Origin: Bolinopsis microptera
Taxonomy: Eukaryota > Ctenophora > Tentaculata > Lobata > Bolinopsidae
Assembly (NCBI RefSeq): GCF_026151205.1
Contig: NC_087074.1
Span: 20,738,765 to 20,802,764, forward strand
Direction: 5' to 3'
Length of the DNA stretch: 64,000 nucleotides
Part shown: in pieces, positions 5,730-64,000 of the stretch
Layout of the letters: each line of letters starts with the position of its first letter
Numbering within the stretch: position 1 is the stretch's first letter
Program-made: the position numbers and the translations under genes
Notes under the pieces: generated by a model
Told to the model about the DNA's origin: nothing
Database searches by the model: none
The model's input: the letters and a program-made list of their open reading frames with translations, nothing else

Positions 5730-5972
5730 TTACTGAATTTATCTGTGTATATTGTTTCTATTTTATAAAAATCTCCAAGAGATTTGTTTGATTCAACACG
5801 GACAAACTTATTTTCAGTTTTAGAAATGGATCTTCATGTTAGGAATTTATTCTTAAAATATATTTTTTGAATATTTACTGTGTTATAGATTTATTAATTC
5901 TTTTTGTCTATGATTCTGTTTGATAATAATAAACTTCTTGCAGAATTAATATATTATTTAACCTCAGGAAAA
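5730..5972 (+). other. Probable 5' UTR or 5' intron of HTATSF1
   Basis: AT-rich and ending in a plausible acceptor (tattatttaacctcag) five bases before the ATG at 5973. This suggests an intron in the 5' UTR, with the upstream non-coding exon unidentified. In-frame codons upstream of 5973 (from about 5904) exist but run through this pyrimidine/AT tract and resemble no known HTATSF1 N-terminus. Confidence 0.5.
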
Positions 5973-9795: not shown

Positions 9796-11926
9796 ATGGC
9801 ACTTGTAGGTAGAATCTCCCGTCAACTCTTCCCAAGACTCTACCCTGTAGTCAGCTCTTCAGCCAGAAACATCTCCTTCAACCTGAATGATCAGCAGACC
9901 GAAATACTAGAAACTACTAGAAAGTTCACTCTGGACGAGGTAGTTCCTACAGCTGCCCACTATGACGAGACCGGGGATTATCCCTGGGAAGTGCTACAGA
10001 AAGCTTTTGATCTAGGCCTCATGAATACCACTATATCTGAGGACTATGGAGGGTTGGGTTAGTTTATTGTCTTGGTTTGTGATAGTGCTTTGGAGTTCAG
10101 TGCCCTGAGCTTTCTATATATATATATTTATTTATATATATAATACAATATACATATATATATATATAATATTCACATGATATACTTTTCATGAGTTTTG
10201 GATTGTAAAATGAAAAATTACTTTTAGATTTGTATGATTTTATTTTTTTGAGAATAGGGATTTGGCTACACCAGCTATGGCTTTCATTATGTAAACTTTC
10301 ATCAATTAGTTTCACAAGAAATATAATTCGTCAGGTTTGTCCCTATTGGAAGCTTGTATCGTACAAGAAGAGATCGGGTTCGGATGTACTGGTATTGCAA
10401 CAGCGCTCGGTGGAAACAGGTTTGTAACATGATGTGCTGGATATGCCATTTTGATAAACATCTTTTTATATCATAAATATGACCTTGTTACATTGAAACG
10501 TAGAACAATTCCTTATCCTGATGACAGCCTTTTCCTTGTCGCAATAAACGGGAACACTACAAATTTTGCCCCAGAAATTTACAATGCATCTATATTATAA
10601 TCTATATTTGACCGAGTAACATTCTCACATTTCAGTCTAGCTGAGTCGCCAGTTATAATAGCAGGTAGCCACGAGTTGAAGAAGAAGTACCTGGGAAGAA
10701 TGACGGAGGAACTGCTAGTTGCAGCGTACGGTGTGACCGAGCCTTCTGCAGGCTCTGATGTTGCTTCTACCAGAACTAGCTCTAGAAAAGGTTTGGGTTA
10801 TAATCACTATGCCATTGATTTACTGATAAATTACCCCAATAAATAGCCAATCAGTTGGGTAGGTAGTTGTGGAAGGATTGAATGGATATAATAAATAAAA
10901 GATCCCCGCTGACATACAATTTACTTCAGTTGGTGATGATTACGTAATAAACGGAAGTAAAATGTGGATAACCAACTGTGGACACGCAAACTGGTTCTTT
11001 GTCTTCACTCGATCGGACCCCGACCCAAAGTGCCCGGCTGCTAAAGCCTTCACGGCTTTTGTTGTGGACGCAGACTCACCAGGAGTCACTGTCGGGAGGA
11101 AGGAATGGAATATGGGACAACGGTTAGTTACATAGTACAGTCACGTGGTGTAGTCACGTGGTGTAATATTGAACATAGTTGAAAGAAATTGATTTGCAGT
11201 TATCCTCGATTTAAAGATAATTGCAATGTGTTCACTACAGCACAATATGATATATATGAGTTGTTTTAAAGAGAGTTAAACAAGTTGACCCTCCCCCCCC
11301 CCCCCCCCCCCAGAGCATCAGACAACAGAGGGGTAACATTTGACGAGGTGGTAGTGCCAGTCACGTGGTGTAGTCACGTGGTGTAGTCACGTGGTGTAGT
11401 CACGTGGTGTAGTCACGTGGTGTAGTCACGTGGTGTAGTCACGTGGTGTAGTCACGTGGTGTAGTCACGAGGTGTAGTCACGTGGTGTAGTCACGTGGTG
11501 TAGTCACGTGGTGTAGTCACGTGGTGTAGTCACGTGGTGTAGTCACGTGGTGTAGTCACGTGGTGTAGTCACGTGGTGTAGTCACGTGGTGTAGTCACGT
11601 GGTGTAGTCACGTGGTGTAGTCACGTGGTGTAGTCACGTGGTGTAGTCACGTGGTGGTGTAGTCACGTGGTGTAGTCACGTGGTGTAGTCACGTGGTGTA
11701 GTCACGTGGTGTAGTCACGTGGTGTAGTCACGTGGTGTAGTCACGTGGTGTAGTCACGTGGTGTAGTCACGTGGTGTAGTCACGTGGTGTAGTCACGTGG
11801 TGTAGTCACGTGGTGTAGTCACGTGGTGTAGTTAAACAAGCCTCCCTTTCAGAGCATCAGACACCAGGGGGGTAACATTTGACGAGGTGGTGGTGCCAGC
11901 TGACAATGTTGTAGGGGAGCCGGGAG
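9796..11926 (+). CDS. ACADM: Medium-chain acyl-CoA dehydrogenase, N-terminal exons 1-5
   Basis: Mitochondrial flavoenzyme for the first step of beta-oxidation of medium-chain fatty acids. Exons by frame and GT-AG sites: 9796-10057, 10335-10419, 10636-10790, 10930-11122 and 11853-11926; phases agree across every junction, giving 256 codons with no frameshift. An Arg-rich, acid-free leader ([19 protein letters not shown]) is a typical matrix targeting peptide. Family signatures follow: [34 protein letters not shown], the acyl-CoA dehydrogenase signature [13 protein letters not shown], the flavin-contacting KMWITN and a W-x-M-G-Q-R stretch. The last exon seen stops at GEPG, where the human protein still has about 160 residues, including the catalytic glutamate. 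I did not find the remaining exons downstream. The acceptor region and start of exon 5 also exist as an upstream partial copy. Confidence 0.92.
11314..11360 (+). pseudogene. Duplicated 5' fragment of ACADM exon 5
   Basis: This repeats the first 47 bases of the true exon 5 (11853 onward) with a few substitutions, and it is preceded by its own acceptor made of a long C run and CAG (about 11292-11313). The intron lead-in 'gttaaacaag' is also duplicated (near 11275 and 11831). It runs directly into the 13-bp array, where the frame hits a stop within a few codons, so it cannot encode the protein. It could still act as a decoy acceptor. Confidence 0.85.
11361..11831. repeat. 13-bp E-box minisatellite in ACADM intron 4
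   Basis: About 36 copies of tcacgtggtgtag, nearly identical, with one 3-base insertion near 11650 and one G-to-A variant near 11470. Each unit contains the E-box palindrome CACGTG, a site for bHLH(-Zip) factors such as USF, MYC/MAX or CLOCK/CYCLE families. Two more units lie at 11140-11166 in the same intron, a likely seed. The array is bracketed by two copies of the start of exon 5. Confidence 0.97.
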
Positions 11927-29236: not shown

Positions 29237-29484
29237 TACAGACGTAATAGCGTTTATACTGGCATTCTAGACTCCTGGCATTTCCTAGACTCCGACGCTC
29301 TACAAAGTATTCTCCATAGCTAAACATCTAGGTCACTGGTCAGGGCATAGGTTATAATAATATTAATATCTTATCCCGCTACAAATAATACAAGTTGAAA
29401 CAACAGTGCAATTTCTCTGTTTCGACGCCCACAAACCTACTTAACAGCGATGTACAGACAGTTTAGGATATGAGTATTATTCAC

Positions 29485-29812
29485 AAACAAATCAGGGTTA
29501 TATTTCGAAGTGTTGGATGTCAGCAATCAATCGGGTTATATTTCAGACATGGTCGGTATGTAAAACAAACATCTGGGTATATTTCCAGACATTGTTAGGT
29601 ATGTCAGCAAACAATCTGGGTTATATTTCAGGGACATGTTAGGTATGTAGCAAACCAATCTGCGGTTATATTTCCAGACATGTTAGGTTGCCAACACAAT
29701 CGGGTTATATTTTCAGGACATGTTAGGTATGTCAGCAAACAATCCGGGTTTTCATATTTCAGACATGGTAGGTATGTCAACAACAATGTCAACAATCTGG
29801 GATAAATTGACA
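29485..29812. repeat. About 42-bp minisatellite with many indels
   Basis: Seven to eight copies of a unit built from 'gacatgttaggtatgtcagc' and 'aaacaatctgggttatattt'. Copies differ mostly by one-base indels rather than substitutions. Confidence 0.85.
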
Positions 29813-33098: not shown

Positions 33099-33169
33099 GG
33101 TTCGGTGGTGTAGGGTTATCACGTCTGCTTTACACCGCAGAAGGTCCCGGGTTCAATCCGGTCGAACCT
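33099..33169 (+). tRNA. tRNA-Val (anticodon TAC) with small indels
   Basis: The acceptor arm GGTTCGG pairs with TCGAACC (last pair G-T), the anticodon stem TCTGC/GCAGA encloses TTTACACC with anticodon TAC at 33131-33133, and the T arm contains GGTTCAATCC. Relative to an ideal tRNA-Val, the D loop lacks one base (tagggttatcac), the anticodon loop has one extra C, and the T stem lacks one C. It is therefore a recent pseudogene or an intact tRNA with consensus errors. Pol III boxes are recognisable. Confidence 0.75.
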
Positions 33170-37099: not shown

Positions 37100-37395
37100 C
37101 AATCAGCATTTTTATGAAGGTGTTGTGCATACTTTGTGGAGGAGTCGAGCATACTTGTGAAGGGTAATGCATACTTAGGAAGGAGTAATGCCATCTTGTG
37201 AAGGGTAGGCATACTTTGTGAAGGGAGTAATGCATACATTGTGAAGAGTGTTTGTGCATACTTTGGAAGGAGTAGTGCATACTTTGTGAAAGGAGTAAGT
37301 AGTGCATACTTTGTGAACGAGTAGTGCATAGCTTTGTGAAACGGAGTTGTGCATTTACTTTGTGAACGAGTAGTGCATACTTTGTGAAAGAGAAT
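37100..37395. repeat. About 23-bp minisatellite with many indels
   Basis: About twelve copies of a unit like gtgcatactttgtgaaaggag. The overlapping minus-strand open frames here are products of the repeat, not genes. Confidence 0.9.
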
Positions 37396-37950
37396 GGAAG
37401 TTTCCACAATGCCCGGAGAATCTACCCACTCACAAATTTACATCTTTAAGTATTAAGTATCATTCTTAATTCTGGACGCACAGTTGTGCCGAGCGCCCCG
37501 CCTTTTTGGAAAAACTCAAGTTTTAAAGGAAAGTCGTCTGCCTTTTACACAAACATTTGCTATCCTACCTAAAATCACCCGAGAAATCGTTTAAGACACA
37601 TTTCAATACCCTAAAATGCAAGGCTGATACGATATCTAAGAAAAACATTTCAAAAAATTTTCAAAAAATCCAAAATTTCAGGCAAGGCTTGTACCAAAAA
37701 GGGCCAAATTTTACAAGAGCACACCTGAAGGGGGCCATGGGGCATCTATTTTCTGTTTTAATAATGTTTAGGCATTTCAAAAAACATAGGGGGGTGGTCC
37801 CTCTTGATTGAGTTCATTTTTATTTTGCCCATAATACATGGTTGTGCCTTCAAATTTTGGGATGCCGCGAGTGCACCTAGAAGGCCAATATTTTAGGCTA
37901 AAAATCAATGAAATTAGACCTCAACGGAGTAAAAGGATATGGTATAGGTT
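37396..37950. other. Intergenic DNA, nothing recognised
   Basis: An 84-codon plus-strand frame (37557-37811) has Lys/Asn-rich content without a motif and I do not support it as a gene. Confidence 0.4.
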
Positions 37951-37954
37951 TAAC

Positions 37955-39078
37955 TGTGCCATAGAATCACATTTAAAGTGTATAAACGACAAGTACATAT
38001 AATTTGTCGAATAAGGTGGTTCGAAAAGAATTTACCTGTATTTTACAGTCAAATTTTTGATCGAGGCTGGTTTACCAAAATCGACCCAGATGATCAGCAT
38101 GTCGTCGCACCCGGGGGAGGCTTCTCAAATTATTGTTTATGATTATGAAACTTTCGGAAAGTCAAACAAAACATCATGAGAGAGCTCCCATTGTGACAAT
38201 CATAGTCCAATTTTGACCATTTGTGGGTGTGCCCTAGAAACAAATACACCAATAATCGCAAAAAGCTCTCATTTCATCACCAAAATTCAGTTTTTTCAAC
38301 AATTTTGTAATTGGGAAGCTCAAATAGCCTCAAGCTGCCATAGAAAGCTAATTTAACGTGATATAAACGACATTACATACATTTGTGGAATAGAGTGGTT
38401 GAAAAGAATATCTGTATTTGAACAGTCCAAAGTTTTTTGATCGAGGCTGCGTACCAACATCGACCCAGATGATCAGATGTCGCACGGGGAGCTTCAAATT
38501 ATGTTTAATGATTTATGAAACGTTTGGGAAAGTCAAACCAACATCATTGAGTGAGCCCTCCCCATTGTGAAGACATCATAGTCAATTTTGACCATTTGTG
38601 GTGTGCCCTAGAAAAAATACACCAAAAAATCGCCAAATCTATCATTTCATCACCAAAATTCAGTTTTTTCACATATTTTGTAATTGGAAAGCTCAAAATA
38701 GCCTCAAAGCTTGCCATAGAAGCTTAATTTAAACGACAATACAATACATTTGTGGAAATGAGTGGTTTGAAAAGCAATTTACCTGTATTTTGACAGTCAA
38801 AATTTTGATCGGAGGCTGGTACCAACATGGACCCAGTGAATCCGCATGTCGCACGGGGGAGGCTTCAAAAATTAAGTTTTATGATTATGAAACCGTTGGA
38901 AGTCAAAAAACATCATGAGAGAGCTCCCCATTGCGACATCAAGTTAATTTCGAACATTTGTGGCAACGCTAGAAAAATACACCAAAATCGCCAAAATATT
39001 CTAATTTTCCTCGCCAAAATCAGTTTTTCATAATTTTGTAATTTCAGTAGCTCAAAAATAGCCTCAAAGCTGCCTCTT
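37955..39078. repeat. Three tandem copies of a about 375-bp unit
   Basis: Copies begin near 37960, 38338 and 38709, marked by 'ccatagaa(g)', 'aaacgac', 'tttgtggaat(a)gagtggtt', 'gatcgaggctg', 'gacccagatgatcagcatg', 'gtgtgccctagaaa' and 'caaaattcagttttttc'. They differ largely by one-base indels, more than by substitutions. Confidence 0.9.
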
Positions 39079-46830: not shown

Positions 46831-48027
46831 ATAGAGAAATACACTACCCGTAGTCAGGAGAAAAAGAATTGTCAGGATCTGAACTAGGGTCAATATCTAC
46901 AGATGCAGTACAAACATGTTCCTTCCAGATGTGTTTAATAAGTTCTGTTTTAAACGCACCTGGTCTGATAATCTCTCGAAGGGAAAGAGGAAGTCGGTTC
47001 CAAGTGAGATGAGCTCGATAAAAGTAAGATTTAGATATAGCTGAGCCAGGTGGAATTGAAGATATTACTGATAAGTGATCAAGATGTGAGCTTCTCAGTC
47101 GGCTTGACCCGGAGAAGAAAGTAAGGTACTGAGGCAGAGTGGTGCATGGGTGGTAATGATGCACTAGGGAATGAAAGAACTTGAGATCATGGTAATCAAA
47201 CCTGTACTTTAGGGGCAGAATATTTAACTGTTTACAATGGGCATTATAGATTTCCTCTACACTATAGCTTACACCGTAATCATTACGAATCCATTTGAGG
47301 GCCCTTTCTGCAATCCTTCAAGCCTATTGATAGTGCTACTGGACGCTGGTCGCCAAATGATGGGACAGTGTTCGAATATTGAGCGTACAAGAGTAAGATA
47401 CAAGACTCTTCTCTTGTTCAGATCATTAATAAAATGACAATTTCTCTTAAGCATGCCAAATTTTTGGTTAGCTTTACCATATAGAGCATCGGCCTGGCTA
47501 TTAAAATTTAGATTAGACGTCATGATTATGCCTAAATCTTTTTCAGAATCTGTATAATCAAGAAGAGTTTGGCCCATAGAGTAAGTGTAACGTGTAAATG
47601 GTAAAATGCCATCTAAGGGAGACCACCTCTTAAGTATAGCTAAGACCTTACATTTATCAGGATGAAACTTCATCTTATTAGTTCTTGCCCATGTCATGAG
47701 ATAATTAATATCGCTTTGAAGTATATGGTGGTCTTCCTCTTGGGATATCTCTCTCCAAATTTTAGTATCATCAGCGTATAAAAGGATATTAGTGCCCTGA
47801 GAAAGTCCAGAATATATATCATTTATGAAAAGAACAAAAAGTGTTGGTCCGATTATTGACCCTTGAGGAACACCTGACAACACCGGTAAGGTTGCAGAGA
47901 TAGCCCCATTAACAACTACACATTGCTGACGTCCGGAGAGGTAACTTTTCATAAATTGGAGAAGCATTCCATCGATGTTATAATAAAATTTTAGCTTGTA
48001 TAGTATTAAGTCGTGGTTAACGGAATC
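46800..48027 (-). mobile_element. Non-LTR retrotransposon relic (jockey/CR1-like reverse transcriptase)
   Basis: Reverse transcriptase C-terminal two thirds on the minus strand. It starts at 48027 within the first conserved block (DSVNHDLILYKL), then SYLSGRQQ, GVPQGSIIGPTLFVLFINDI, the active-site LLYADDTKIW, a DKCKVL block and the thumb region. A one-base frameshift near 47315 passes into a C-terminal segment (LKWIRNDYGV... then SKSYFYRAHLTWNRLPLSLR) that ends at 46844. Endonuclease and ORF1 are missing: the 5' end is cut exactly where the 15-bp minisatellite starts. A run of about 30 A on the plus strand (46799-46828) lies just beyond the stop, the opposite polarity to a normal poly-A tail. 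Confidence 0.9.
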
Positions 48028-48572
48028 TAGAGGAGGTGTTACTAGAGGAGGTGTTACTAGATGATGTGTTACTAGATGATGTGTTACTAGATAAGGTGTT
48101 ACTAGAGAAAGGTGTTACTAGAGGAGGTGTTACTAGAGGAGGTGTTACTAGAGGAGGTGTTATTAGAGGATGTGTTATTAGAGGAGGTGTTACTAGAGGA
48201 GGTGTTACCGGAGGAGGTGTTATTAGAGGGAGTGTAACTAGAGGAGGTGTTACTAGAGGAGGTGTTACTAGAGGAGGTGTTACTAGAGGAGGTGTTACTA
48301 GAGGAGGTGTTACTAGAGGAGGTGTTACTAGAGGAGGTGTTACTAGAGGAGGTGTTACTAGAGGAGGTGTTATTAGAGGAGGTGTTACTAGAGGAGGTGT
48401 TACTAGAGGAGGTGTTACTAGAGGAGGTGTTACTAGAGTAGGTGTTACTAGAGGAGGTGTTACTAGAGGAGGTGTTACTAGAGGAGGTGTTACTAGAGGA
48501 GGTGTTACTAGAGGAGGTGTTACTAGAGGAGGTGTTACTAAAGGAGGTGTTATTAGAGGGAGTGTAACTAGA
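48027..48572. repeat. 15-bp minisatellite
   Basis: About 36 copies of agaggaggtgttact with scattered substitutions and almost no length change. It abuts the truncated reverse transcriptase. Open frames of up to 184 codons on the plus strand are repeat products. Confidence 0.97.
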
Positions 48573-51551: not shown

Positions 51552-53151
51552 ATGAAGAGGATCTCTACAATGACTATAAAGCCCTTTGTAGTGATCTACT
51601 GGATATTCGGCTTCGCCTCAGGGTCTGCAATTGATAGCGGTTAGTAGTTTTCAGACTTCACTATTACTTCACTGTTATTAGTTTTATCGTGTCAGTCTTC
51701 GTCCGCTCTGCAAATGAACGCTGGCTCGTTGAGTAAGTTGTTGTCTTTATAAATACTGGCAGAATTGTCTAGTTCTATCGTTTGGTAATCTTCCGTTTAT
51801 GAGGTGCGTCGTGCAAGTGTGTCGTGCAAGTGTGGGTCACTAAACACTATGCTGTAACTATGCTGTAACTATGCTGTAACTATGCTGTAACTATGCTGTA
51901 ACTATGCTGTAACTATGCTGTAACTATGCTGTAACTATGCTGTAACTATGCTGTAACTATGCTGTAACTATGCTGTAACTATGCTGTAACTATGCTGTAA
52001 CTATGCTGTAACTATGCTGTAACTACGCTGTAACTATGCTGTAACTATGCTGTAACTATGTTGTAACTATGCTGTAACTACGCTGTAACTATGCTGTAAC
52101 TATGCTGTAACTATGCTGTAACTATGCTGTAACTATGCTGTAACTATGCTGTAACTATGCTGTAACTACGCTGTAACTATGCTGTAACTATGCTGTAACT
52201 ATGCTGTAACTATGCTGTAACTACGCTGTAACTATGCTGTAACTATGCTGTAACTATGCTGTAACTATGCTGTAACTATGCTGTAACTATGCTGTAACTA
52301 TGCTGTAACTATGCTGTAACTATGCTGTAACTATGTTGTAACTATGCTGTAACTATGCTGTAACTATGCTGTAACTATGCTGTAATTATGCTGTAACTAT
52401 GCTGTAACTATGCTGTAACTATGCTGTAACTATGCTGTAACTACGCTGTAACTATGCTGTAACTACGCTGTAACTATGCTGTAACTATGCTGTAACTATG
52501 CTGTAACTATGCTGTAACTATGCTGTAACTATGCTGTAACTATGCTGTAACTATGCTGTAACTATGCTGTAACTATGCTGTAATTATGCTGTAACTATGC
52601 TGTAACTATGCTGTAACTATGCTGTAACTATGCTGTAACTATGCTGTAACTATGCTGTAACTATGCTGTAACTATGCTGTAACTATGCTGTAACTATGCT
52701 GTAACTATGCTGTAACTATGCTGTAACTATGCTGTAACTATGCTGTAACTATGCTGTAACTATGCTGTAACTATGCCCAAATACAAATTCTAATTATCCG
52801 CTTACTTAAATTCCCACAGGCTGGATTACAGTGCCAAAAGATACAAAAGTCAACATAGCGTCTTCTCCACTGGAGATACAGACACACTCGCAGGGCAACC
52901 TGAGGATCATCTTCTACGGGAACGAGGGAAACGCGGGAAAGATCGACATAGAGGTTTCCAGTGGTACCTCAAAATACCGTCTAAATGAATGTATGAATAA
53001 ACATGATGACTTCCATCCAAATATCATGACCGACGGAAATGCTAATATTTGGAGAGTGGAAAAGAAATGGGATAACCCAGAGATACTTAGAGTTTTGGTG
53101 TTCTGCAACGGCAAGGAGGTTTTTAGTAAATTTAGGCTCTTCAATTTCTAA
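51552..53151 (+). CDS. Small secreted protein, two exons, family unknown
   Basis: Exon 1, 51552-51639, encodes a start methionine, basic residues and a hydrophobic signal sequence (FVVIYWIFGFASGSA). Donor gttagt; acceptor ttcccacag; exon 2 is 52820-53151. The split codon rejoins in phase (Ser-Gly-Trp), giving 139 residues. The mature part is beta-rich in appearance, with one Cys in NECMNK and one in VFCNGKEV, a conserved-looking IWRVEKKW, and no transmembrane segment. The WRV...cNGxEV pattern reminds me of extracellular beta-sandwich domains in invertebrate secreted proteins, but I cannot name the family. An AATAAA lies at 53153-53158, right after the stop. The only intron is almost entirely an 11-bp array. 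It lies tail-to-tail with the minus-strand transporter gene. Confidence 0.75.
51847..52770. repeat. 11-bp minisatellite, 84 units, in an intron
   Basis: 924 bp equals exactly 84 copies of ctatgctgtaa with no length change. Rare point variants (ctacgctgtaa, ctatgttgtaa, a c-to-t giving taattatg) recur at several places. It fills most of the 1180-bp intron of the secreted-protein gene. Confidence 0.97.
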
Positions 53152-53158
53152 CAATAAA

Positions 53159-53712
53159 CTTAATAATGAGAGGAGGAATCTGGTCCACTAGCACTAAGAA
53201 TCTAATGCGGGATAAGTCTGACAACTTGTCTAAATACCTTTTTTGAGATCTCAGAGATTGGCGACAACTAAAAAATCATTGGTAACACTCCGCAGGAGAT
53301 AAACGTTCCGATAACTGAGGCACATTGCAGCTCGGATAACTATTTACTGTGGCATAGGACCGCAGTTAAGATGGCTTTCATGGACTCAGACTCTGCTTCT
53401 ATATCATACCGCAATGTGCAAGGTGATAAACTATGGTCGGAAATTAATTTAGTATAAGATGTCAAGAAAATAACAGTTTCAAGAAAATAACAATTTCTCC
53501 ATTTCTCCGCCTAATTTCTTTTAACACAGATATCAGGTCGACCATTATTGAGTGGGTGTAGTTACACAACCTAATCTAACACTTTTCAGACTTTTGGGTT
53601 ATTGTTATTACAATAGTTCTGCAATATAACAGAAAACGCTTAACATTAACAACTTTGATTATGTGTTATTCGTATGATATGTTCATAACAGATGTGTACT
53701 TAGTACTCACAA
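53159..53712. other. Between secreted-protein gene and transporter, nothing recognised
   Basis: No exon found on either strand. The C-terminal transporter exons expected here on the minus strand are not visible. Confidence 0.4.
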
Positions 53713-53713
53713 G

Positions 53714-53909
53714 TATTAATTATGTGTATTAATTATGTGTATTAATTATGTGTATTAATTATGTGTATTAATTATGTGTATTAATTATGTGTATTAATTG
53801 TGTGTATTAATTATGTGTATTAATTATGTGTATTAATTATGTGTAATAATTATGTGTAATAATTATGTGTATTAATTATGTGTAATAATTATGCGTAATA
53901 ATTATGTGT
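53714..53909. repeat. 13-bp minisatellite next to a splice donor
   Basis: About 15 copies of tattaattatgtg (later units taataattatgtg). It begins about a dozen bases beyond the exon 4 donor of the minus-strand SLC35F6 gene. Confidence 0.95.
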
Positions 53910-53922
53910 ACTGAGTACTCAC

Positions 53923-56083
53923 GGAAGTGTAAGGTCTGAGAGAGCCCCACGTAGATTAGTCCGATGACAATAATGAACATTCCCAATACATTGTGTCTCT
54001 CAAACCTCTGTTTTAGAGCTACCCTAGCTAGTAGTCCGGTAAATATTATCACAGCTCCTGGGGAGAAAGGTTTGAGAGTAAGGACTTTAGGGTGGATTAC
54101 TAAAACAATTACTCTGCCATATGTTCAGTGTTTTCAAACATTTAAGCCGGAGGTCCCCAGGATATAAAACAACACTCATGTGACCATGTCATGTGACCAT
54201 GTCATGTGACCATGTCATGTGACCATGTCATGTGACCATGTCATGTGACCATGTCATGTGACCATGTCATGTGACCATGTCATGTGGCCATGTCATGTGA
54301 CCATGTTAAGACTCATGTGCTTCCTCTCATTGGTTAAAGTTACCTCTCATCATTTGAGCTACACTAGCGTACGTGAGGCTCAGCCCCAGATACAACATGC
54401 TGGTTGCAGTGAGAGGTTACTCCTAGTTACCACCTAGTTACCACCTAGTTACCACCTAGTTACCTCTCATCATTTGAGCTACACTGGCGTACGTGAGGCT
54501 CAGCCCCAGGTACAACATGCTGGTTGCAGTGAGATCGCAAAGTGCGGGAACCAGCAAAAAGTAAGGTTTGAAACCCTCTCCCGCTACTTGAGGTTCTTCT
54601 CCTTTCCGTTTAGCTACCACTACTGTTAGATGATAGACAACCAAACACCCTGACTCCCCAATAAACATCAGTATCGCCTGAGGGGAGTTTTGGTTAATTT
54701 TGTCGGAGCCCCCGGTTTAAAATTTGCGAGGTGTAACTTTTAGGAATTTGGGACGAGCCAGATTTTAAATATACTGAAAATAAGCCTCAAATAAGATGAT
54801 TGATTTTATAGTAATAATGTAGTCCAGCTGAGAGAAGAGCATCGAAATAAATCGAATTGACTGGCATCAAATTTGTAATTTAATACATATAATAATTATG
54901 GCGCGCGAGTTAACTCATTGCATGCGGACACGGACCCGCATTTTCACAGATTTTATGTTCATAGTTTCATATCGGATGCATATCTTACCTATCAGATGTG
55001 ATATGCAGCGATAGTATCCGATAGGCAACCGATGTAAAACGGTAAAACTAAAGCCGGTAAACTTAAAATCTGGCTGTCATGTACGCGACGGCCGGCGCTG
55101 CGCGCCGGGCCACGCGTGTAGCGCAATGAAACATACAACTTTATTCTTTGCGTCTTCCAGTAAAATATACAGTAGACCGTTTCAGGGGCGTCTTCTGGCA
55201 GAGTTATAAAACAAGAGTTACAACGAAAAATCATGGGCCACTGTCTTGACAGATAATAGTTCACAAACAAACCAGCCCAAAGTATACTCACTTGAAAGAA
55301 GGGATGGTAGAAAGTGCGCCTAAAGGATTCACATTTGTCAGCACCATAACTCGCGGACACGTCGGCAAACCTGTAATATTAGAAGGATTGGAAATTACAT
55401 TTATTTTATTCTCGTCTCTGAATCTTAATGTTTGTGTTTTCTTCTTAACATATTCTTGTTGTTATAATATGAATTACGAAAGACTCGTACAGATTAGAAA
55501 TATTTCTGATCAACTTGATGAAGTGGTGAGTTTTAGTTTCCCATGACCCTGCTGTTCGGACTTCTGCTAATACTTTTGAGTTTTGATGTGCAACATTTGA
55601 CGTCATATTGTAAGTATAAAGTATCAGTATATAGAACTGTGATTTCTGGAGAAGTCACAAGAATACACAAACGGAAGTTGAAATGTAATATGCAAGATTG
55701 GTGCACGCGAGTTCTGTACTAGAAAACTCCCATTGCGTCACACAAAGTATTGAATATCATCACATGCCCATAATTTGTAAATATTAGAATGTAATAACTC
55801 GGCTGTTATGTGTTATGTGGTGGACAGTGTCCACTCGACACGTATATTTTACACTCTACAAATATCCCTTATTTCCCTTATGTCCGATAAGCACTAAGTT
55901 CAATTTACTGCTTACAGAACGCCATTTTCACAATCTTTCTAATGAAGGTAAAACCTTTAAAGATCACTCACTGATAAAGCTCGATTGGAAGCAATGATAA
56001 AAGTGTACTTACTTAGCAGATATTGTGTTAATTGTCCCAGTGATCATCATAATCAAAGCCAGTACCAGACCCCATTTTATCAT
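53923..56083 (-). CDS. SLC35F6: SLC35F6-type transporter, exons 1-4 (N-terminal half)
   Basis: Drug/metabolite-superfamily membrane protein; the human protein locates to lysosomes and mitochondria. Exon 1, 56083-56013, encodes WGLVLALIMMITGTINTISA, a first transmembrane helix like the human N-terminus. Exon 2, 55370-55292, encodes FADVSASYGADKCESF and HPFFQ. Exon 3, 54677-54464, encodes LMFIGESGCLVVYHL, then FLLVPALCDLTATSMLYLGL and TYASVAQMMRG. Exon 4, 54057-53923, encodes AVIIFTGLLARVAL and LGMFIIVIGLIYVGLS. All donors and acceptors are canonical and phases agree (166 codons). The CDxTxTSxxYxxL and QMxRGAVIIFTG blocks identify the family. Human SLC35F6 is 371 residues; the second half was not found below 53923. 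A partial copy of exon 3 lies between exons 3 and 4. Confidence 0.9.
54176..54305. repeat. 13-bp minisatellite in SLC35F6 intron 3
   Basis: Ten uninterrupted copies of tcatgtgaccatg, with one A-to-G variant, in the intron between exons 3 and 4. Confidence 0.95.
54341..54462 (-). pseudogene. Duplicated 3' fragment of SLC35F6 exon 3 plus an 11-bp array
   Basis: 54344-54413 repeats the last 70 bases of exon 3 with its splice donor (54343-54342), differing by two substitutions. Between this fragment and the true exon end lie four copies of ttaccacctag (about 54415-54461). The fragment lacks its own acceptor, but it supplies a second copy of the same donor. Confidence 0.88.
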
Positions 56084-56755
56084 CCTAATAATGAGGAAAA
56101 TTCATACATTCAGGAAATTAATTTAGATCAGTGATATCAATAAGCCAAATTCCTTAGAAATAAAAAAGAGATTATTTGGGTTTATTTAATTCCAGTCACC
56201 AAACCGCAAACTTCAATTAATTGACTTTTGACATTTACATTTACATTTAAGAAACATATTCAAAGTTACTTAATTCAGTATAAATGTTTACTAAATACAG
56301 TGTACACAGTATAAATATCACCTAAAATAAAACATCATAGGACACGAATAAAAGTCGGTTAGCACGGTCAAAAAACTATCCGTAAAACTCTCAAATATTC
56401 GATACTGACTTGTATTGTTGGTTGTATCAGTGATATGTATCTCCATTTATCAGCCAGTTGTGTATCAAAGTGTATTATATATAAGAGTACGAAGGGATTC
56501 AATACACACACATCGGAATACTATGTTAAATTACATCTTGCCCCTTATTAAAGTAGTTAAATATTGCTCTTTACACAGTTATCATATCAGTTAAGGAAGT
56601 GGAATAGTAATAACCCCCGATATGAAACAGGTGACAATATTGGTCTATTGTCACTATTCATGATTAAATGTACAGGGGGAAGTCAGTGTACATAATATGT
56701 TTAATGTTGGGTGTTATACTATACCACTGCAACATACTGTACCTATGCATAACAA
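56084..56755. other. Upstream of SLC35F6, nothing recognised
   Basis: Probable promoter side of the minus-strand transporter gene. AT-rich; no defined promoter motif or repeat. Confidence 0.4.
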
Positions 56756-56759
56756 GTTT

Positions 56760-56990
56760 ATACCAAAATGAATAAACTCGCTATGCTTCATATCTCGGTC
56801 ATCTAAGAAGCTAGAACTCAGGGTTAATGAAATTTGAATGGCCAAATACAATTTGGCTCTATTGGATATTTAACATATCAAATAAATGCGAAAATGAACC
56901 TTCATTCCAAAAAAATTAATTTGAATATTCTTTCATTTGATATATTCCTCGAATATTTATCGAACGAGTGGTGTGGTGATATCAATTATT
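56760..56990. mobile_element. Fragment of the mariner-like MITE
   Basis: Matches the interior of the 43646-44418 element in the same orientation (43646-element part 44104-44340): 'atgaataaactcgctatgctt', 'tatctcg', 'aatttggctc', 'atcaaataaatgcgaaa' and 'tctcgaa'-like words in order. Both termini are missing. Confidence 0.7.
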
Positions 56991-57165
56991 GTAAGTAACC
57001 TTTTTTAGAAACTATAAAAATAAAATACTGAAACATACGTAACATAAAACATTGATATAAAATTTACTAAAGAAATTAAAGTTATTAAGGAAATTGTGAA
57101 TCAGATAAAACAGTAACACAAGTAAATAACTTTGAACAAATCAACTATGTACTTGGAAACTAAAT

Positions 57166-59746
57166 TTAATGTCTTATCACGTGAGCTATAGGCTCCAACA
57201 AATCTAATAATCTGGATATAATATTATTAAATGCAGTACCACTGTCACCACTGTCACCACTGTCACCACTGTCACCACTGTCACCACTGTCACCACTGTC
57301 ACTACTGTCACTAGAATACTTCCTTTCTGGAGTTTGGTATAACACAACAGAACACTTTACACGGGCTCGTGAGATTGCAAGATAAAGTTGACTGATGTCC
57401 CATAAAAACGAATCGACCTCAACTTCATGTAACACAATAACAGCAGGCCACTCAGATGAAAAGCTGTCAAAACCTGTACATATTGATATCTTATTAGTGT
57501 CGTAACCTTCACTACTCAGTGTCTTTACAATAAACTGTTCTGTCTTAGTATCTATCATTTTAGTTACCAATATTCCAATGTCGGAATAATCTAAATCATC
57601 TCCCTTTAACAACATCTTAAATTCATTTATCAAGACATCTTTTATCAAGGTATAATCATCATTCTCCAAAACATGTATCTTAGTTAAAGGTCCTCTTATA
57701 AAATGTCCATCTTCCTGTTTTGGAAAAATGTATCCAAATTCACTTCCTACCATGTCAGCGCAAAAACCCCTCACTACAGATAAAACAGATGATATGTCTT
57801 GAGTGTTCCTCAAATTTTTAGGTAATGTTACTCGCCGCACACTCGACAACTTGTCCTCTATATCTAGTAAATCATGTATTTGAAAAAGATATTTACTATC
57901 CGTATAAAGGAAACATTGTGCTATGTCACATACCACCCACACGTGGTGTGCAGCAGACAACTTGATAAGATCGTTAAGAAGCTCTATAAATACATGTTTA
58001 GTCCCCAAAATGGGGTAGTTGGATATTAAAGCCTGGATATCGTCTATAAATACACTACTATCTGTTAGAGATATTGCCAGTTCTCTAAAAACACGTGGAA
58101 CTCCAATTCTAGACACATATCTATAGTGACAATTACAACCTGGTAATGTTCTTTAATATCATTTATCTCATCTGACACGATCGATGTACATTTCTTGTAA
58201 CTGTAAGTCTTACACGTAACCCCTGCTTTACTCAGTGCAGTTTGATACAAGTTAGCGTTATTACCTTTACCAGCAAATGTGAATACCACGATCTTGTTCT
58301 TCTCATCAGATAACGCTAACTGTAAAATCTTCCCGCACATTACAACTGTTTTGCCTGACCCAGCCGGTCCGTTTATCCACAACAACTTTTCTTTCGATTT
58401 TAATGTCTTGTCTTGATCAGCAGTCAAATATTTGATACCGACATAATCTCTTACTTCAGGGGGAGCTTCTACTACACCAGGATTTGAATTGACATTTCTT
58501 ACTCCCTTTTTCTCAAACGTGATAATTGCTGTCTTCAACTTCGCATCGATGTCTCGTATGTTCTTCCTAATGAGCATATATTTTTCTCACATATATTATT
58601 CTTGTTAGCCCACAATGCGAGAAGAACGTTTTCAGTCTCTTCAAATGATACAGGAGATTGTTGATCCTTTGATATTTCTTCTGTAACGTTTGTTTTCCAC
58701 CAAGAACTAAAGCTATCATCACTCTCTATGTCCACTTTAGTGATTCTTCCCACACATCTTTCTTTCTCATACGGAAATGCGGCAAACTTTAAAATTTTAG
58801 GAACTACACTACCTAACATTTTAGCAATCCCTAGAATAAGCTTTTCTGTTCTGCTTGCTTGAAGCTCTGCCTCATTCCGATCAGCTGTGTTTTTCTTGAC
58901 TTCGATGATAACAAAATAGTATTTTCCCATTACAATAAAATCACACTCCCCTGTTATGTTTCCATCACATAGTTTCCTCTTTTTCTTACCCATTTTCTCA
59001 CTCTCGAAAGATTCCTCAACAAACAGCTTGTAATCACTGCGAAGGTATTTTAAACCGTGAAGTACGGTGATTTTATCATGATGTTTTATTCTCTCAAGAA
59101 CCCTAAAAACCTTTACCTCAGCCTCAAACCCATATCTGCTATTTTTAAGTTCTTCACAGTACTTTGGAACTCCAGAGTTAGTTTTCTTGCACTTATTGGA
59201 TTTCTTGAGCTTGTTCACAGAATTCCAATCAATTTTGTCGATAAATTTTGAAAGAGGCATTGGTGGGACCATAACCGGGTAATACACAGTTGGTTGTTCT
59301 GGATCCTGTTTGGGTAGTGGCTCGAAAGTAGAGATATAATTTTCCCTTATATCTTTACCATCTCTTTTCAAATCTGCCAACCGATCACCTGTTAAAATAG
59401 CTCGTCATGAGATGTTATATAGTTCATGGTATCACAAATCTTCATAACAGGGGGAGGGGGTTTATATCTTGTTTTCTTAGTTATGGGATAAAATATTTCA
59501 AGTGAAAAGGGTTGTTAAATGAGTCTTATTGAAAGAAATCGATACTTGAGGAAGGAGGGATAGTATAAGAGAACGAGAATAAGGAAGTGAGGGGTACATT
59601 AAAGAACGAGAGAAAATAGAGTGTTAAGAAAATCTGTAAGCAGAGTTCCCTTAAAAATTAGGCTGGTAACCAACCTGTATTTTGTTGATGGGAACTAGAA
59701 GTAGCCAGCTCAGAATCCTGTCTTGCATTATTTGAAGATTCGACCA
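57166..59746 (-). CDS. NERD nuclease / SF1 helicase-like protein
   Basis: A short exon (59746-59675, Ser/Asn/Gln-rich) splices in phase to a long exon starting 59388. First block (to about 58560): a nuclease-related domain with the PD-(D/E)XK core GECDFIVMGKYYFVIIEVKK (Asp, then Glu-Val-Lys). Second block (58577-58120): Walker A GPAGSGKT after LTADQDK. Third block (58116-57166): Walker B VFIDDIQ, motif III CDIAQ, and near the end SSEWPAVIV and motif VI LYLAISRARVK, as in UvrD/DUF2075-type helicases. A (Gly-Asp-Ser)n repeat precedes the C-terminus. Frame shifts occur near 58560 and near 58100; at the latter, one A is missing relative to the paralog at 62.6-64 kb. Proteins with this nuclease-ATPase architecture process DNA or RNA, many in bacterial defence; any role here is inference. 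Upstream exons beyond 59746 are unknown. Confidence 0.85.
57238..57306 (-). repeat. In-frame 9-bp coding repeat, (Gly-Asp-Ser)n
   Basis: Seven to eight units of ccactgtca on the plus strand, read on the minus strand as Gly-Asp-Ser repeats near the C-terminus of the nuclease-helicase protein. It stays in frame because the unit is a multiple of three. It resembles a low-complexity acidic linker. Confidence 0.9.
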
Positions 59747-59865
59747 CTGAAAAGTAGTGATTACCATGTGTTACATAAACAAAGTAATAAAATCTAGAAG
59801 TATATCCATCGAGGTGTAATTTAGTGTTGGTCGTTTAAGAGGGTTCAACATCTCCAGACATAAGG

Positions 59866-60113
59866 TAGACTAATGTAGGGAGGGGTTAGATTAGAGATTA
59901 GAGTAAGGTAGGGAGGGGTTAGATTAGAGAATGAGAGTAAGGTAGGGAGGGGTTAGATTAGAGAATGAGAGTAAGGTAGGGAGGGTTAGATTAGAGAATG
60001 AGAGTAAGGTAGGGAGGGGTTAGATTAGAGAATGAGAGTAAGGTAGGGAGGGGTTAGATTAGAGAATGAGAGTAAGGTAGGGAGGGGTTAGATTAGAGAA
60101 TGAGAGTAAGGAG
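59866..60113. repeat. 34-bp minisatellite, left block
   Basis: About seven copies of a unit joining 'gggaggggttagattagaga' and 'atgagagtaaggta'. The same unit occurs on the far side of the AG tract. Confidence 0.95.
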
Positions 60114-61990
60114 AGTGAAAGACAGAAGAGAAGAGTAGAGGCAGCAGAAGATAAGAAGAAGCGCAGAAAGAGAGCAAGAGGAGAGAAGAGAAGAGAGAGA
60201 AGCAAGAGAGAGAGGAAGAGAGAGAGAAGAAGAGAGAGAAGAAGAGTAGAAGGAGAGAAAGAGAGAGAGCAGAAGAAGAGAAGAGAGAGAAGAGAAGAGA
60301 GAAAAGAGAGAGTAGAGGAGCAGTAAGAGAAAGAGAAGAGAGAAGATAAGAGAGAGAGAGAGAAAGAAGAAGAAATGAGAAAGAAGAGAGGAGAGGAGAA
60401 GAGCAGAGTGAGAAGAGTAGAGAAGAGAAAGAGAAGAGAGAGAGAGAGAAAGAGAGACAGAGAAGAAGAGAGATAGAGAGAGAGAGGAGAAGAAGAAGAG
60501 ACAGAGTAAGAGGAGCAGAGAAAGAAGAGAGAAAAGCAGGAAGAGAGAAGAGAGAAGAGAGAAGTAGAGAGAGAAGAGATAGAGAGAAAGCAAGAGAGAG
60601 AGAGAGGAAGAGAGAGAGAGTAGAGATAGAAGAGAGAGAGAGAAGAGAGCAAGATCAGGGAAGAGAGCAGAGAGAAGAGAAAGAGGAAGAAGAGAGAGAG
60701 AGTAAGAAGAAGAGAAGAAGAAAGAAGAGAGAGAAGGAGAGATGAAGAGAAAGAGAGAGAGAGAGAGAAGTGAGAGAGAAGAAGATGCGAGAGAAAGAGA
60801 GAGAGTAGAAGAGAGGAGAAAGAGAGAGAAGAGATAGAGAAGAGAAGAAGAGAGAGAAGGAGAGAGTAAGAAGAGAGAAGAAGAAGAGTAAGAGGAGAGA
60901 GAGAGAGAGAGAGAGAGAAGAGAGCAGATAAGAGAGAGAAGGAGAGAGACAGAGAGCAGAAGAGAGAAGAGGAAAGAGAGAGAAGCAGCAGCAGAGAGTA
61001 GAGAGAGAGAGAGATAGAAGAAGAAGGAGAGAGAGAGAGAGCAGAGAGAAGAAGAGTAGAGAGAGAGAGAAGAGAGAAGACAGAGCAGAGAGAGAGAGGA
61101 GAGAGAAGAGAAGAAGAAGAAGAGAGAGAGTAAGAAGAGAGAAGAGAGCATAAGCAGAGAGAGAGAGAGTAGAAGAGAGCAGAAGCAAGAGAGAAGAGAT
61201 AGAAGAGAGAAGAAGAGAAGAGAAGAGAGAGAGAGAGAGACAGAAGAGAAGAGAAGAAGAGAGAGAGAGAGGAGTAGAGCAGAGTAGCAGAGTAAAGAGA
61301 AGAAGAAGTGAGAGAGAGCTAGAGAGAGACAGAGAGGAGAGAGAGAGAGAGGAAAGAGAGAGTATAGACAAGAAGAGAAATGAGAGAGTAGAGAGGCAGA
61401 GAGTAGAAGAGAGGAGATAGCAGAGATAGAAGAGCAAAGAGAAGAGAGATAGCAGGAGAGTAGAGAGAAGGAGAGAGGTAGCAGGAAGAAGGAGCAGTAG
61501 AGAGTGAAGAAGAAGAGAGAGGTGAGAGAGATAGGAGAGATAGAAGAGAGAGAGAGAAGAAGAGAGAAGGAGAAGAAGAGAGAGAGCAGAAGAGAGAAGA
61601 GAGAAGAGAAGAGAGAGAGAGAGGAAGAGGAGAAGAGGAGAAGAGTAGAAGAGAGAGAGAAGAGAAGAAGAGAGAGAGAGAGAAGAGAAGTAGAGAGAGA
61701 GAGAAGAGAGAGAGAAGAGAGAAGAACAGGAGAGAGAGAGAGGTAGAAGAGAGAGAGAGCAGAGGGAGGGAGAAGTAGAGTAGAGAGCAAGGAGCAGAGA
61801 GAAGTAGAGCAGTAGAGAAGAAGCCAGAGAGGAAGAGAGTAGAGGAGTCAGAGGAGGAGAGAGAGAAGATCAGAGAGAGAGGAGAGAGTTGAGAGAAGAG
61901 AGTAGATAGAGGGCAGAGAGAGGAAGAGAGAGAGAGAATGAGAGATAAGAGAGAAGATAGAGAGCAGAGAAGAAGGAGAGGTAAGAAAGG
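60114..61990. repeat. 1.9-kb polypurine AG tract
   Basis: Plus strand almost wholly A and G (agag, agaag, gagaa words) with occasional single T or C. It could form triplex (H-DNA) structures and is polymorphic-prone. The Leu/Ser-only frames of up to 565 codons on the minus strand and the Arg/Glu frame on the plus strand are artefacts. Confidence 0.97.
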
Positions 61991-62625
61991 AGTGAGAATG
62001 AGAGTTAAGGTAGGGTGGGGTTTATTAGAGAATGAGGAGTAAGGTAATCGGGAGGGGTTAGATTAGAGAATGAGAGTAATGTAGGGATGTATTAGATTAG
62101 AGAATGAGAGTAAGGTAGGGTGGGGTTAGATTAAAGATTGGGTAAGGTAGGGAGGTGTTAGATTAGAGAATGGGAGTAAGGTAGGGAGGGGTTAGATTAG
62201 AGAATGAGAGTAAGGATAGGGAGGGGGTTAGATTTAGAGAATGGAGAGGTTATGTAGGGGAGGGGTTAGATTAGCGAATGAGAGTAATGTAGGGAGGGGT
62301 TAGATAAGAGAATGAGAGTAATGTAGGGAGGGGTTAGATTAAGATTGAGAGTAAAGGTAGGGGAGGGGTTAGATTTGAGAATGAGGAGGTTAAAGGTAGG
62401 GAAGGGTTTGATTAGAGAATGAGAGTAATGGTAGGGAGGTGTTAGATTAGAGAAATGGAGTAAGGTAGGGAGGGTGATATAATAGAATGAGAGTAAGGTA
62501 GGGAGGGGTTAGATAATTAGATGAGAGTAAAGGTAGGGAGGAGGTAGGATTAGAGAATGAGAGTAATGTAGGGAGGGGTTAGATAAGAGAATGAGAGTAA
62601 GGTAGGGAGGGGCTAGTTTAGAGAA
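61991..62625. repeat. 34-bp minisatellite, right block
   Basis: About 18 copies of the same unit as at 59866-60113, but with many one- and two-base indels between units, unlike the clean left block. Confidence 0.93.
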
Positions 62626-64000
62626 TGTTATAAAGATTTGTGATACCATGAACTATATATAACATCTCATGACAAGCAATTTTAACAGGGTATCGGTTAG
62701 GACAGATTTGACAAAAGAGGATGGGAAATGATTAAGGGAAAATTATATCTCTTCTTTCGAGCCACTACCCAAACAGGATCCAGAAACAACCAACTGTGTA
62801 TTACACGGGTATGGTACCACCAATGCATCCTTTCAAAAATTTATCTAAAGTTTTTTTGACAAAATTGGATTGGAATTCTGTGAACAAGCTCAAGGAAATC
62901 CAATAAAAGTGAAGAAAACTTATCTCTGGAGTTCCAAGTACTGTGAAGAACTTAAAAATGGCACGATGGGTATGAGGCTGAGGTAATGGTTTTTAGGGTT
63001 CTTGAGAGAATGAAACAACACGACAAAATCACAGTACTCCACGGTTTAGAATACCTTCACAGTGATTACCAGATCTTTGTCGGAGACCATCTGTACATAA
63101 CTGGTGATAAGAAGGGGCAACCATGTGATCGAGACGAAGATGCAAAAGAAGGAGAGTGTGATTTTATTGTGATGGAAAAATACTATTTTGTTATCATCGA
63201 AGTCAAGAAAAACAGAGCTGATCTCGACGATGCAAAACTTCAAGCAAGCAGGACAGAAAAGCTTATTCTAGGGATTCTAAATGTTAAGTAGTGTAGTCCA
63301 TAAAATTTTAAAGTTTGCCGCAATTTCCGTATGAGAAAAAAGCTGTGTGGAAGAATCACTAAAGTGGACACAGAGGTGATGATAACTTTAGTTTCTTGGT
63401 GGAAAACATAAAGTTACAGAAGAAATATCACAAGGTCTCAACAATCTCCTGTATCATTTGAGAGACTAAAAAGTTATTCTCGCTTGTGGGTAACATGAAT
63501 AATATATGTGAGAAAAATATATGCTCATTAGGAAGGAAACATACGAGACATCGATGCGAAGTTGAAGACAGCAATTATCACTTTTGAGAAAAAGGGAGTA
63601 AGAAATGTCAATCAAATCCTGGTGTAGTAGAAGCTCCCTGAGTGAAGAAAGTATGTCAGTATCGATTTTTGACTGCTGTTATGACAATACATTAAGAATC
63701 GGAAAGAAAAGTTGTTGTGGATAAACGGACCGGCTGGGCAGGCAAATCAGTTGTAATGGTGGGAGAAGATTTACAGTTAGCGTTATTGATGTGAAGAACA
63801 AGGTTCGTGGTATTCACATTTGCTGGTAAAGGAAATAACGCTTCCTTGTATAAACTGCGTGAGTAATAGCAGGTTACGTGTAAGACTTACTGTTTCAAGA
63901 AATATGTCATTTCGATCGTGTCAGATGAGATAATGTTTATTAAGATCATTACAGGTTGTAATTGTCACTATAGATATGTATCTAGAAATTGGAGTTTCAC
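62626..64000 (+). pseudogene. Diverged, broken paralog of the NERD nuclease-helicase (partial)
   Basis: Homologous in inverse orientation to 59445-58100. It covers the acceptor region, the start of the long exon, the NERD core (62986-63291, EGECDFIVMEKYYFVIIEVK), the linker and the Walker A region near 63725, and runs off the window end. Substitutions are real: the segment between FVGDHL and GECDF differs in length and sequence from the other copy. Numerous frameshifts break it. At the second frameshift point of the other copy, this one keeps an extra A (ctagaaattgg versus ctagaattgg) that restores the reading frame. No counterpart of the 59746-59675 exon was found upstream. Confidence 0.85.

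Follow-up and report, generated by a model that had tools for sequence, protein, structure and literature searches.

Nhi (nuclease-helicase immunity) of Staphylococcus epidermidis is described as a single-gene nuclease-helicase with DNA-nicking and unwinding activity, and has been proposed to respond to the single-stranded DNA-binding protein (SSB) of phages (PMC12904381). AbpAB, a nuclease/helicase system of two genes, is described as being activated by phage SSB or by DNA damage (PMC10732053). The group III Schlafens have been presented as an animal analogue of the nuclease-helicase design (PMC8875196). Here we describe a pair of genes, each predicted to join a NERD nuclease domain to a superfamily 1 (SF1) helicase, in the comb jelly Bolinopsis microptera. 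The pair lies at the end of a stretch of 64,000 nucleotides (assembly GCF_026151205.1, contig NC_087074.1, positions 20,738,765 to 20,802,764), referred to below as the window.

Immune gene families of ctenophores have been surveyed, and 38 NACHT and 15 TIR2 genes were given for Mnemiopsis (PMC11797021). NERD was not seen among the 20 Pfam domains tested in that survey, and the word is absent from its main text (PMC11797021). Among open papers, as represented by their titles and the start of their abstracts, we found no NERD family in animals, and none that combined ctenophore, NERD and helicase. The family described below resembles bacterial anti-phage enzymes in its build and changes most quickly away from its working parts, a hint of an animal defence system that has so far gone unrecognised.

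Judged from sequence, the two genes belong to a large family, expanded in its lineage, of single-chain proteins that join a NERD nuclease to an SF1 helicase, and these most likely act as cell-autonomous defence effectors. We put the probability of this reading at roughly 0.58.

A NERD nuclease and an SF1 helicase encoded by one gene

The first gene, copy 1, is read on the minus strand as three overlapping open pieces of 289, 173 and 328 amino acids (aa). The two frame breaks lie inside the overlaps, near 58,535-58,586 and 58,065-58,152. The first piece holds the NERD-type core (ECDF, EVK), the second the Walker A motif and the third motifs II and VI. The following features were located:

57166-59404, minus strand: copy 1, NERD-SF1 helicase gene (open reading frames and family profile)
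58535-59404, minus strand: N-terminal arm and NERD (PD-(D/E)XK-type) domain of copy 1 (Pfam NERD 17 bits; family-profile positions 5-270)
58937-58948, minus strand: ECDF of copy 1 (translation)
58895-58903, minus strand: EVK of copy 1 (translation)
58347-58370, minus strand: helicase motif I (Walker A) of copy 1, GPAGSGKT (translation)
58033-58050, minus strand: helicase motif II of copy 1, FIDDIQ (translation)
57352-57372, minus strand: helicase motif VI of copy 1, SRARVKC (translation)
57238-57311, minus strand: in-frame 9-bp minisatellite of copy 1, 8.2 units, encoding a C-terminal GDS repeat

A family profile built from 17 other members in the same genome matched the three pieces at E = 7e-35, 1.9e-47 and 5e-62 in a search of the fetched loci, and an open NERD stretch of the second gene, copy 2, at 8.7e-25. 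Matches of this strength argue that the family membership of the two copies is not due to chance. An earlier note, made from the letters of the window alone, had read a NERD nuclease and an SF1 helicase in one gene; the motifs and profile matches (7e-35 to 5e-62) bear this out, and exclude the absence of any NERD/helicase homology that it had named as counter-evidence.

Among the Pfam models, UvrD-helicase (25.9 bits, cut-off 23), ResIII (26.9, cut-off 22.5) and NPHP3_N, another P-loop model (29.3, cut-off 24.8), exceeded their cut-offs on pieces from the window, and UvrD_C_2 remained below (17.4, cut-off 27.4). NERD fell below its cut-off of 22.1 bits in copy 1 and exceeded it in another member, L009, with 39.7 bits. 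The NERD piece of copy 1 shares 61% identity with an uninterrupted frame of 734 aa on contig C12. In the closest intact relative of copy 1 (L045), UvrD-helicase reached 22.3 bits (cut-off 23) and UvrD_C_2 25.8 bits (cut-off 27.4). UvrD-helicase was matched at E <= 0.01 by 10 of 17 aligned members. A single-sequence AlphaFold2 model of the NERD piece of copy 1 had a mean pLDDT (predicted local distance difference test) of 34 and was unusable.

Conservation of the catalytic residues

In profile numbering, the NERD residues E64, D119 and E132 were each present in all 34 frames, both window NERD pieces included, and K134 in 33 of them. The SF1 motifs Q, I, II, III, IV, V and VI are all present, in order and near-invariant: the Walker A lysine was found in 35 of the 36 frames covering it, both aspartates of motif II and the aspartate and glutamine of motif III in 36/36, the motif IV arginine in 32/33 and the motif VI arginines in 28/28 and 27/27. 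The helicase motif names are those that we presume to apply; motifs I-IV were also placed by alignment to a bacterial protein. The catalytic residues of both domains are near-invariant in the frames compared, and those of NERD predict nuclease activity.

Family size and mode of duplication

The genome searched comprises 264,652,675 bases in 232 contigs, of which C1-C13 make up 258,070,895 bases (97.5%); the window is part of C3. At least 143 merged loci, including both window copies, matched NERD or the full-length queries. The loci result from merging, by strand and with a 1.5-kb gap, 91 rows from Pfam NERD, 62 from one member protein and 124 from the window NERD piece, and a broken gene may count twice. 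The number is a lower bound, because the candidates were scored only in part (58 of 305 for the member protein, 135 of 211 for the NERD piece). All 91 NERD matches, taken at E <= 0.001, exceed the Pfam cut-off. This genome-wide count, which the earlier note had suggested, excludes a single-copy gene. The expansion that it had assumed therefore stands, and the family is not the small one that it had pictured.

The longest clean frame was at least 650 aa in 85 of the 143 loci, 450-649 aa in 21 and shorter in 37. Among the first 20 fetched loci, a methionine followed within 20 codons of the preceding stop in 18 of 19 long frames, so the coding part of the family seems to be a single exon. Single long frames are not peculiar to this family: glutamate-receptor-type frames of 904-989 aa occur in the same genome, and several such frames of more than 900 aa are clustered (C12:11782391-11809362 and others).

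Members were found on all 13 large contigs, both clustered and dispersed. Contigs C12 and C13 carry 20 loci each, against 8.4 and 9.0 expected from their length. A neighbour within 10 kb was found for 31 of 142 loci, compared with a mean of 1.6 and a maximum of 10 in 300 random placements. Contig C10 has one family locus where 10.1 are expected (Poisson 5e-4).

Close relatives among 30 loci share their downstream flanks and about 270-870 bp upstream of the frame, and the ends of this homology are specific to each copy (for example at about -400/+440 in L014 and about -510 in L018; the comparison used the 45 longest alignments on each side, out of 81 upstream and 68 downstream). Since the shared flanks end at copy-specific points, duplication at the DNA level is indicated, which makes retrocopying, or a transposon whose ends are fixed, less likely. 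The flanks support the view that the repertoire grows by tandem and segmental duplication of DNA, probably including inverted duplication. Some members vary in structure. The N-terminal/NERD part is duplicated in L023 and L025, and L035 carries an insertion.

Another member is fused to a long ankyrin-repeat tail (L026:3791-6874; Ank_2, E = 1.7e-82). Between L033 and L036 the number of synonymous substitutions per synonymous site (dS) is 0.52 in the nuclease half and 0.02-0.05 in the helicase half, suggesting gene conversion or exchange between paralogs.

The probable inverted duplication and copy 2

From 62626 onwards, copy 2 aligns with copy 1 in the opposite direction, and it is cut by the end of the window; in the adjacent DNA (L039, L040) its coding part extends to about window coordinate 65,080. 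Outside the window it terminates, like copy 1, in an in-frame GDS minisatellite, with 25.2 units compared with 8.2. The duplication has arms of roughly 6 kb, in which 59449->53451 is paired with 62626->69206. Beyond the arms, up to 76,235, no piece of at least 150 bp matched the window at 1e-10. The duplication and the spacer between the genes consist of:

53451-59449, minus strand: left arm of the inverted duplication (blastn pieces 82.6-95.1% identical to 62626-69206)
59867-60111, plus strand: 34-bp tandem array, 97% matches, 1% indels
60165-61980, plus strand: degenerate GA-rich tract of 1.8 kb in the spacer between both genes
61994-62627, plus strand: second stretch of the 34-bp array, 82% matches, 8% indels, probably unpolished sequence
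62626-64000, plus strand: copy 2, inverted paralog, cut by the window end (match to copy 1 in inverse orientation)
62956-63288, plus strand: open NERD stretch of copy 2, 10-20 substitutions per 100 aligned bases (family profile)

The diverged, inverted paralog and the facing of both genes across AG-rich repeats, as first described from the letters of the window, were thus both recovered. A tree of 37 rows over the N-terminal half, in which copy 2 is represented by 111 aa, grouped both window copies with L045 (support 0.997).

Indel events averaged 4.9 per 100 aligned columns over 62,626-64,512 and 1.1 beyond. This, and the rise from 1% to 8% indels between the two stretches of the 34-bp array, suggests that the apparent decay of copy 2 is probably largely assembly noise. 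The indel-rich part (about 62,000-64,500) looks like unpolished long-read sequence, and the substitutions in copy 2 look real. The B. microptera assembly is described as having undergone gap closing with TGS-Gapcloser and then polishing with pilon, which fits the raw-read look and is no proof of it (PMC10232365).

The same gap closing followed by pilon (PMC10232365), the indel-rich stretch and two non-genic arm pieces at 95% identity would also suit another explanation: that copy 2 is no real paralog, being the other haplotype or a mis-joined read inserted backwards when the gap was closed. We regard this as unlikely, though it is the strongest of the alternatives considered here. Against this, the copy 2 NERD stretch has diverged by 10-20 substitutions per 100 bases, copy 2 groups in the tree (on only 111 aa) with a C12 paralog and away from copy 1 (support 0.91), and the 34-bp array lacks a palindromic arrangement. 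A simple fold-back (palindromic read) was rejected, because the array has one and the same orientation on either side of the GA tract; the NERD substitutions also look real.

Other tandem arrays of the window, at 37111-39074 and 29484-29787, have up to 15% indels (one, with a 373-bp unit in 3 copies, has 13%), and suggest further unpolished stretches in the assembly.

Selection on motifs and spacers

Ratios of nonsynonymous to synonymous substitution rates (dN/dS) were obtained from pairwise alignments after removal of gap-adjacent codons (3 dropped), for pairs hand-picked among close paralogs of the fetched loci (a pool of 106 pairs, each of 200 or more codons and with dS < 1.5). Four pairs of intact genes yielded values of 0.50 [0.36-0.71] in NERD, 0.29 [0.18-0.50] in the helicase motifs and 2.30 [1.31-5.15] in the segment separating motif I from motif II (the motif I-II spacer). 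The corresponding values in 12 pairs, made up of these 4 and 8 with a broken or truncated partner, with some genes used as two pieces, were 0.33, 0.33 and 1.42 [1.02-2.06]. The difference between the motif I-II spacer and NERD was significant in both sets (Fisher p = 1e-4 and 1e-9, respectively). The intervals of the remaining spacers include 1. The nuclease and helicase halves differ in their evolution among close paralogs, as seen in the pool and in a partly different set of 12 pairs drawn from it.

The motif I-II spacer also shows a deficit of synonymous changes relative to a neutral split (p = 0.008 and 0.037, uncorrected for the choice of segment or pairs; the neutral synonymous share of 0.21 was set by hand and agrees with the value implied by the pairwise dN/dS data). 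Constraint on the enzymatic motifs appears solid in these comparisons. Positive selection on the motif I-II spacer is suggested by them, and not proven.

A proposed defence role and its alternatives

A role of the genes on foreign nucleic acid, already considered in the earlier note, is plausible, with defence inferred. The helicase motor would load onto foreign or aberrantly replicating nucleic acid and move along it, and the tethered NERD domain, with its conserved catalytic residues, would nick or cut this substrate. The fast-changing segments between the motifs may contact partners or structures encoded by parasites. Duplication would then yield many variants of one conserved enzymatic core. 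More tentatively, and at somewhat less than even odds, the family may be a germline arsenal of more than 100 ctenophore nuclease-helicase effectors with conserved cores and diversifying sensing surfaces, a counterpart of the bacterial Nhi/NERD-helicases that attacks viral nucleic acid directly.

Several observations weigh against reading the family as a set of nuclease-helicase defence effectors. NERD is below the Pfam cut-off in copy 1 (17.0 bits against 22.1), and is absent from the Pfam matches of L045 at E <= 0.01 (it reached 24.4 bits in L035, of the same clade). At this threshold NERD was matched by all 17 aligned members, which is no independent test, because the members had been picked by a NERD search. 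The competing P-loop models NPHP3_N and nSTAND_NTPase5 matched 14 of the 17 each. The helicase half was seen in the fetched loci and in the 53 of 62 member-protein rows that extend through helicase motif I, and is assumed from frame length elsewhere; 37 of the 143 loci have only clean frames below 450 aa. When gene-wide dS is used, the ratio for the motif I-II spacer drops to about 1.0, and the intact pairs taken singly gave 0.97 (L013/L014), 1.41, 2.87 and one value without synonymous change. Because of the ratio of about 1.0 and the L013/L014 pair, relaxed constraint may also account for the spacer. In PADLOC, a database of defence systems, mad8 matched 11 of the 17 members, more than the NERD+UvrD profile C3a187 did, and the rows for six members fall mostly in the region of motif I.

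A role inside the genome, in which the family acts on transposable elements, in replication stress or in DNA repair and its expansion follows the mobile elements of the host and not viruses, has a small but real share of the probability, slightly below that of the assembly artefact. Defence and repair helicases share their mechanism in part, and the core is of the SF1 UvrD/PcrA type (weak profile matches to PcrA and others). Parts of the type of long interspersed nuclear elements (LINE) were found in the window (reverse transcriptase, 47269-48114) and beside one family member, L019 (an endonuclease-like frame, below its cut-off). The activation of AbpAB by DNA damage also keeps a link to repair alive. 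However, housekeeping repair genes are normally low in copy number and evenly constrained, whereas here at least 143 loci and a spacer dN/dS of about 1 or more are found.

Considerably less probable is a relaxed, decaying gene family with no current function. The two frame breaks of copy 1, the 58 of 143 loci in which no clean frame reaches 650 aa and the spacer dN/dS of about 1.0 under gene-wide dS would agree with decay, but not the 85 clean long frames, the near-invariant catalytic residues and the constraint on motif codons in intact pairs (0.29). The least probable reading, that a self-spreading mobile element carries the gene as cargo or has it at its core and that the copies are selfish, would suit the spread of members over all 13 large contigs, the single long frames and the many broken copies, but the flank homology ends at copy-specific points and takes in sequence upstream of the frame, and scans of viruses and phages turned up nothing related outside the Walker A region. 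The flank alignments viewed for 30 loci showed no constant ends shared by dispersed copies; no search aimed at terminal repeats or target-site duplications was made.

If the defence reading is true, ctenophores use a direct nuclease-helicase attack, a design so far studied in bacteria. Ctenophores have been argued to be the sister lineage to all other animals, and the antiviral defence of early-branching animals would become a testable question. The natural set of variants, in which the engine stays constant and the spacers change, would offer a route to what such helicases sense. The family loci outnumber the 38 NACHT and 42 C-type lectin genes given for Mnemiopsis, which is another species with genes counted by another method (PMC11797021).

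Prokaryotic relatives and origin

The best prokaryotic match was a plasmid gene of Selenomonas ruminantium annotated as 'NERD domain-containing protein', the sole match among 72,556 records (tblastn E = 2e-9, query residues 50-366, 25.8% identity, 41% of the query). A profile-profile alignment to its protein spans NERD through motif IV in 370 columns (probability 98.7, E = 3.8e-16); the helicase motifs of the Selenomonas protein lie outside the trimmed residue alignment and were compared by this profile-profile alignment only. In PADLOC, the Selenomonas protein matched RTasNERD-Hel over nearly its full length (4.8e-66) and C3a187 at 1.2e-24. The animal members matched C3a187 in 9, Nhi in 5 and RTasNERD-Hel in 3 of 17 cases at E <= 0.01. 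L009 matched RTasNERD-Hel weakly in two stretches (1.5e-9). No full-length match to Nhi was found among six members, the best being 1.4e-06 over profile positions 184-252 of 470. Because they lie mostly in the motif I region, the PADLOC matches of the animal proteins support a kinship of kind and not membership.

Further scans returned little. A scan of prokaryotic genomes with the family gave 589 pattern matches and no confirmed relative, and a second scan with the Selenomonas protein gave one relative, from another Selenomonas strain. A profile search of 299 genomes from the phylum of Selenomonas had matches in 17, all to the helicase only (positions 297-458) and none to NERD; this search was insensitive, as it missed the Selenomonas genome itself at 1e-5 and at 1e-3 found 4 matches there, NERD included. 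In the PDB, 19 sequences matched at E <= 1 (best 0.00047), of which 18 align around motif I and one at another place. Against NCBIfam and PHROGs, the only matches were weak ones or ankyrin repeats.

A phage collection held no relative, and scans of viral contigs gave two loci with a match in the Walker region, then 0/5, with nothing beyond the Walker A region; a viral origin was rejected on these grounds. A recent transfer from bacteria was likewise rejected, with 0 of 589 matches confirmed and one plasmid match at 26% identity. On the acquisition from microbes that the earlier note considered possible, the findings are mixed: the architecture is homologous to that of a bacterial NERD-helicase, but a recent transfer looks unlikely, because no close prokaryotic relative was found.

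Other features of the window

A fragment of a LINE-type reverse transcriptase (46844-48114, minus strand; RVT_1, E = 4.5e-16) runs into a 15-bp minisatellite of 36 copies at 48027-48572. Very clean minisatellites with 11- or 13-bp units and up to 85 copies occur at 51846-52776, 11359-11832, 53713-53910 and 54176-54306. An open frame of 466 aa on the plus strand (5898-7298) has two RNA recognition motif stretches, and presumably resembles the splicing factor HTATSF1. A transfer RNA gene was found at 33099-33169 (Rfam 43.4 bits), to which ARAGORN assigned no anticodon.

Comparison with known systems

In architecture the family resembles the bacterial NERD-helicases of PADLOC (RTasNERD-Hel, PDLC03813, labelled DRT, and C3a187 NERD+UvrD, PDLC01087): an N-terminal NERD domain precedes an SF1 helicase on the same chain, ExK and Walker A are conserved, and the order is collinear with the Selenomonas protein over the 370 aligned columns. 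The animal family differs in motif II, which reads FIDD-Q where the bacterial proteins have VDEAQ, in a longer N-terminal arm and variable inserts, and in its at least 143 loci in a single genome. A full-length match to RTasNERD-Hel was found in the Selenomonas protein only.

Nhi and AbiO are, like the present family, single-gene nuclease-helicases, and Nhi is the nearest functional precedent. The match to Nhi is, however, confined to the motif I region (three rows), and the nuclease parts are at most putative homologues. Weak matches to Gabija GajB and other UvrD-like defence helicases reflect a shared UvrD-like ATPase core; GajB partners a separate nuclease, GajA, and carries no NERD domain.

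Among animal proteins, group III Schlafens such as SLFN11 have an N-terminal nuclease core. The N-terminal domain of the present family is instead NERD, and its match to the SLFN-g3 helicase is weak (E = 0.0003-0.04) and below the cut-off (20.7 against 24 bits for a window piece); the listed Pfam matches include no Schlafen core. The NACHT and TIR immune families of ctenophores, in the same phylum, share with it the lineage-specific expansion and the unusual architectures, and the ankyrin repeats carried by L026 are such a case in the family described here.

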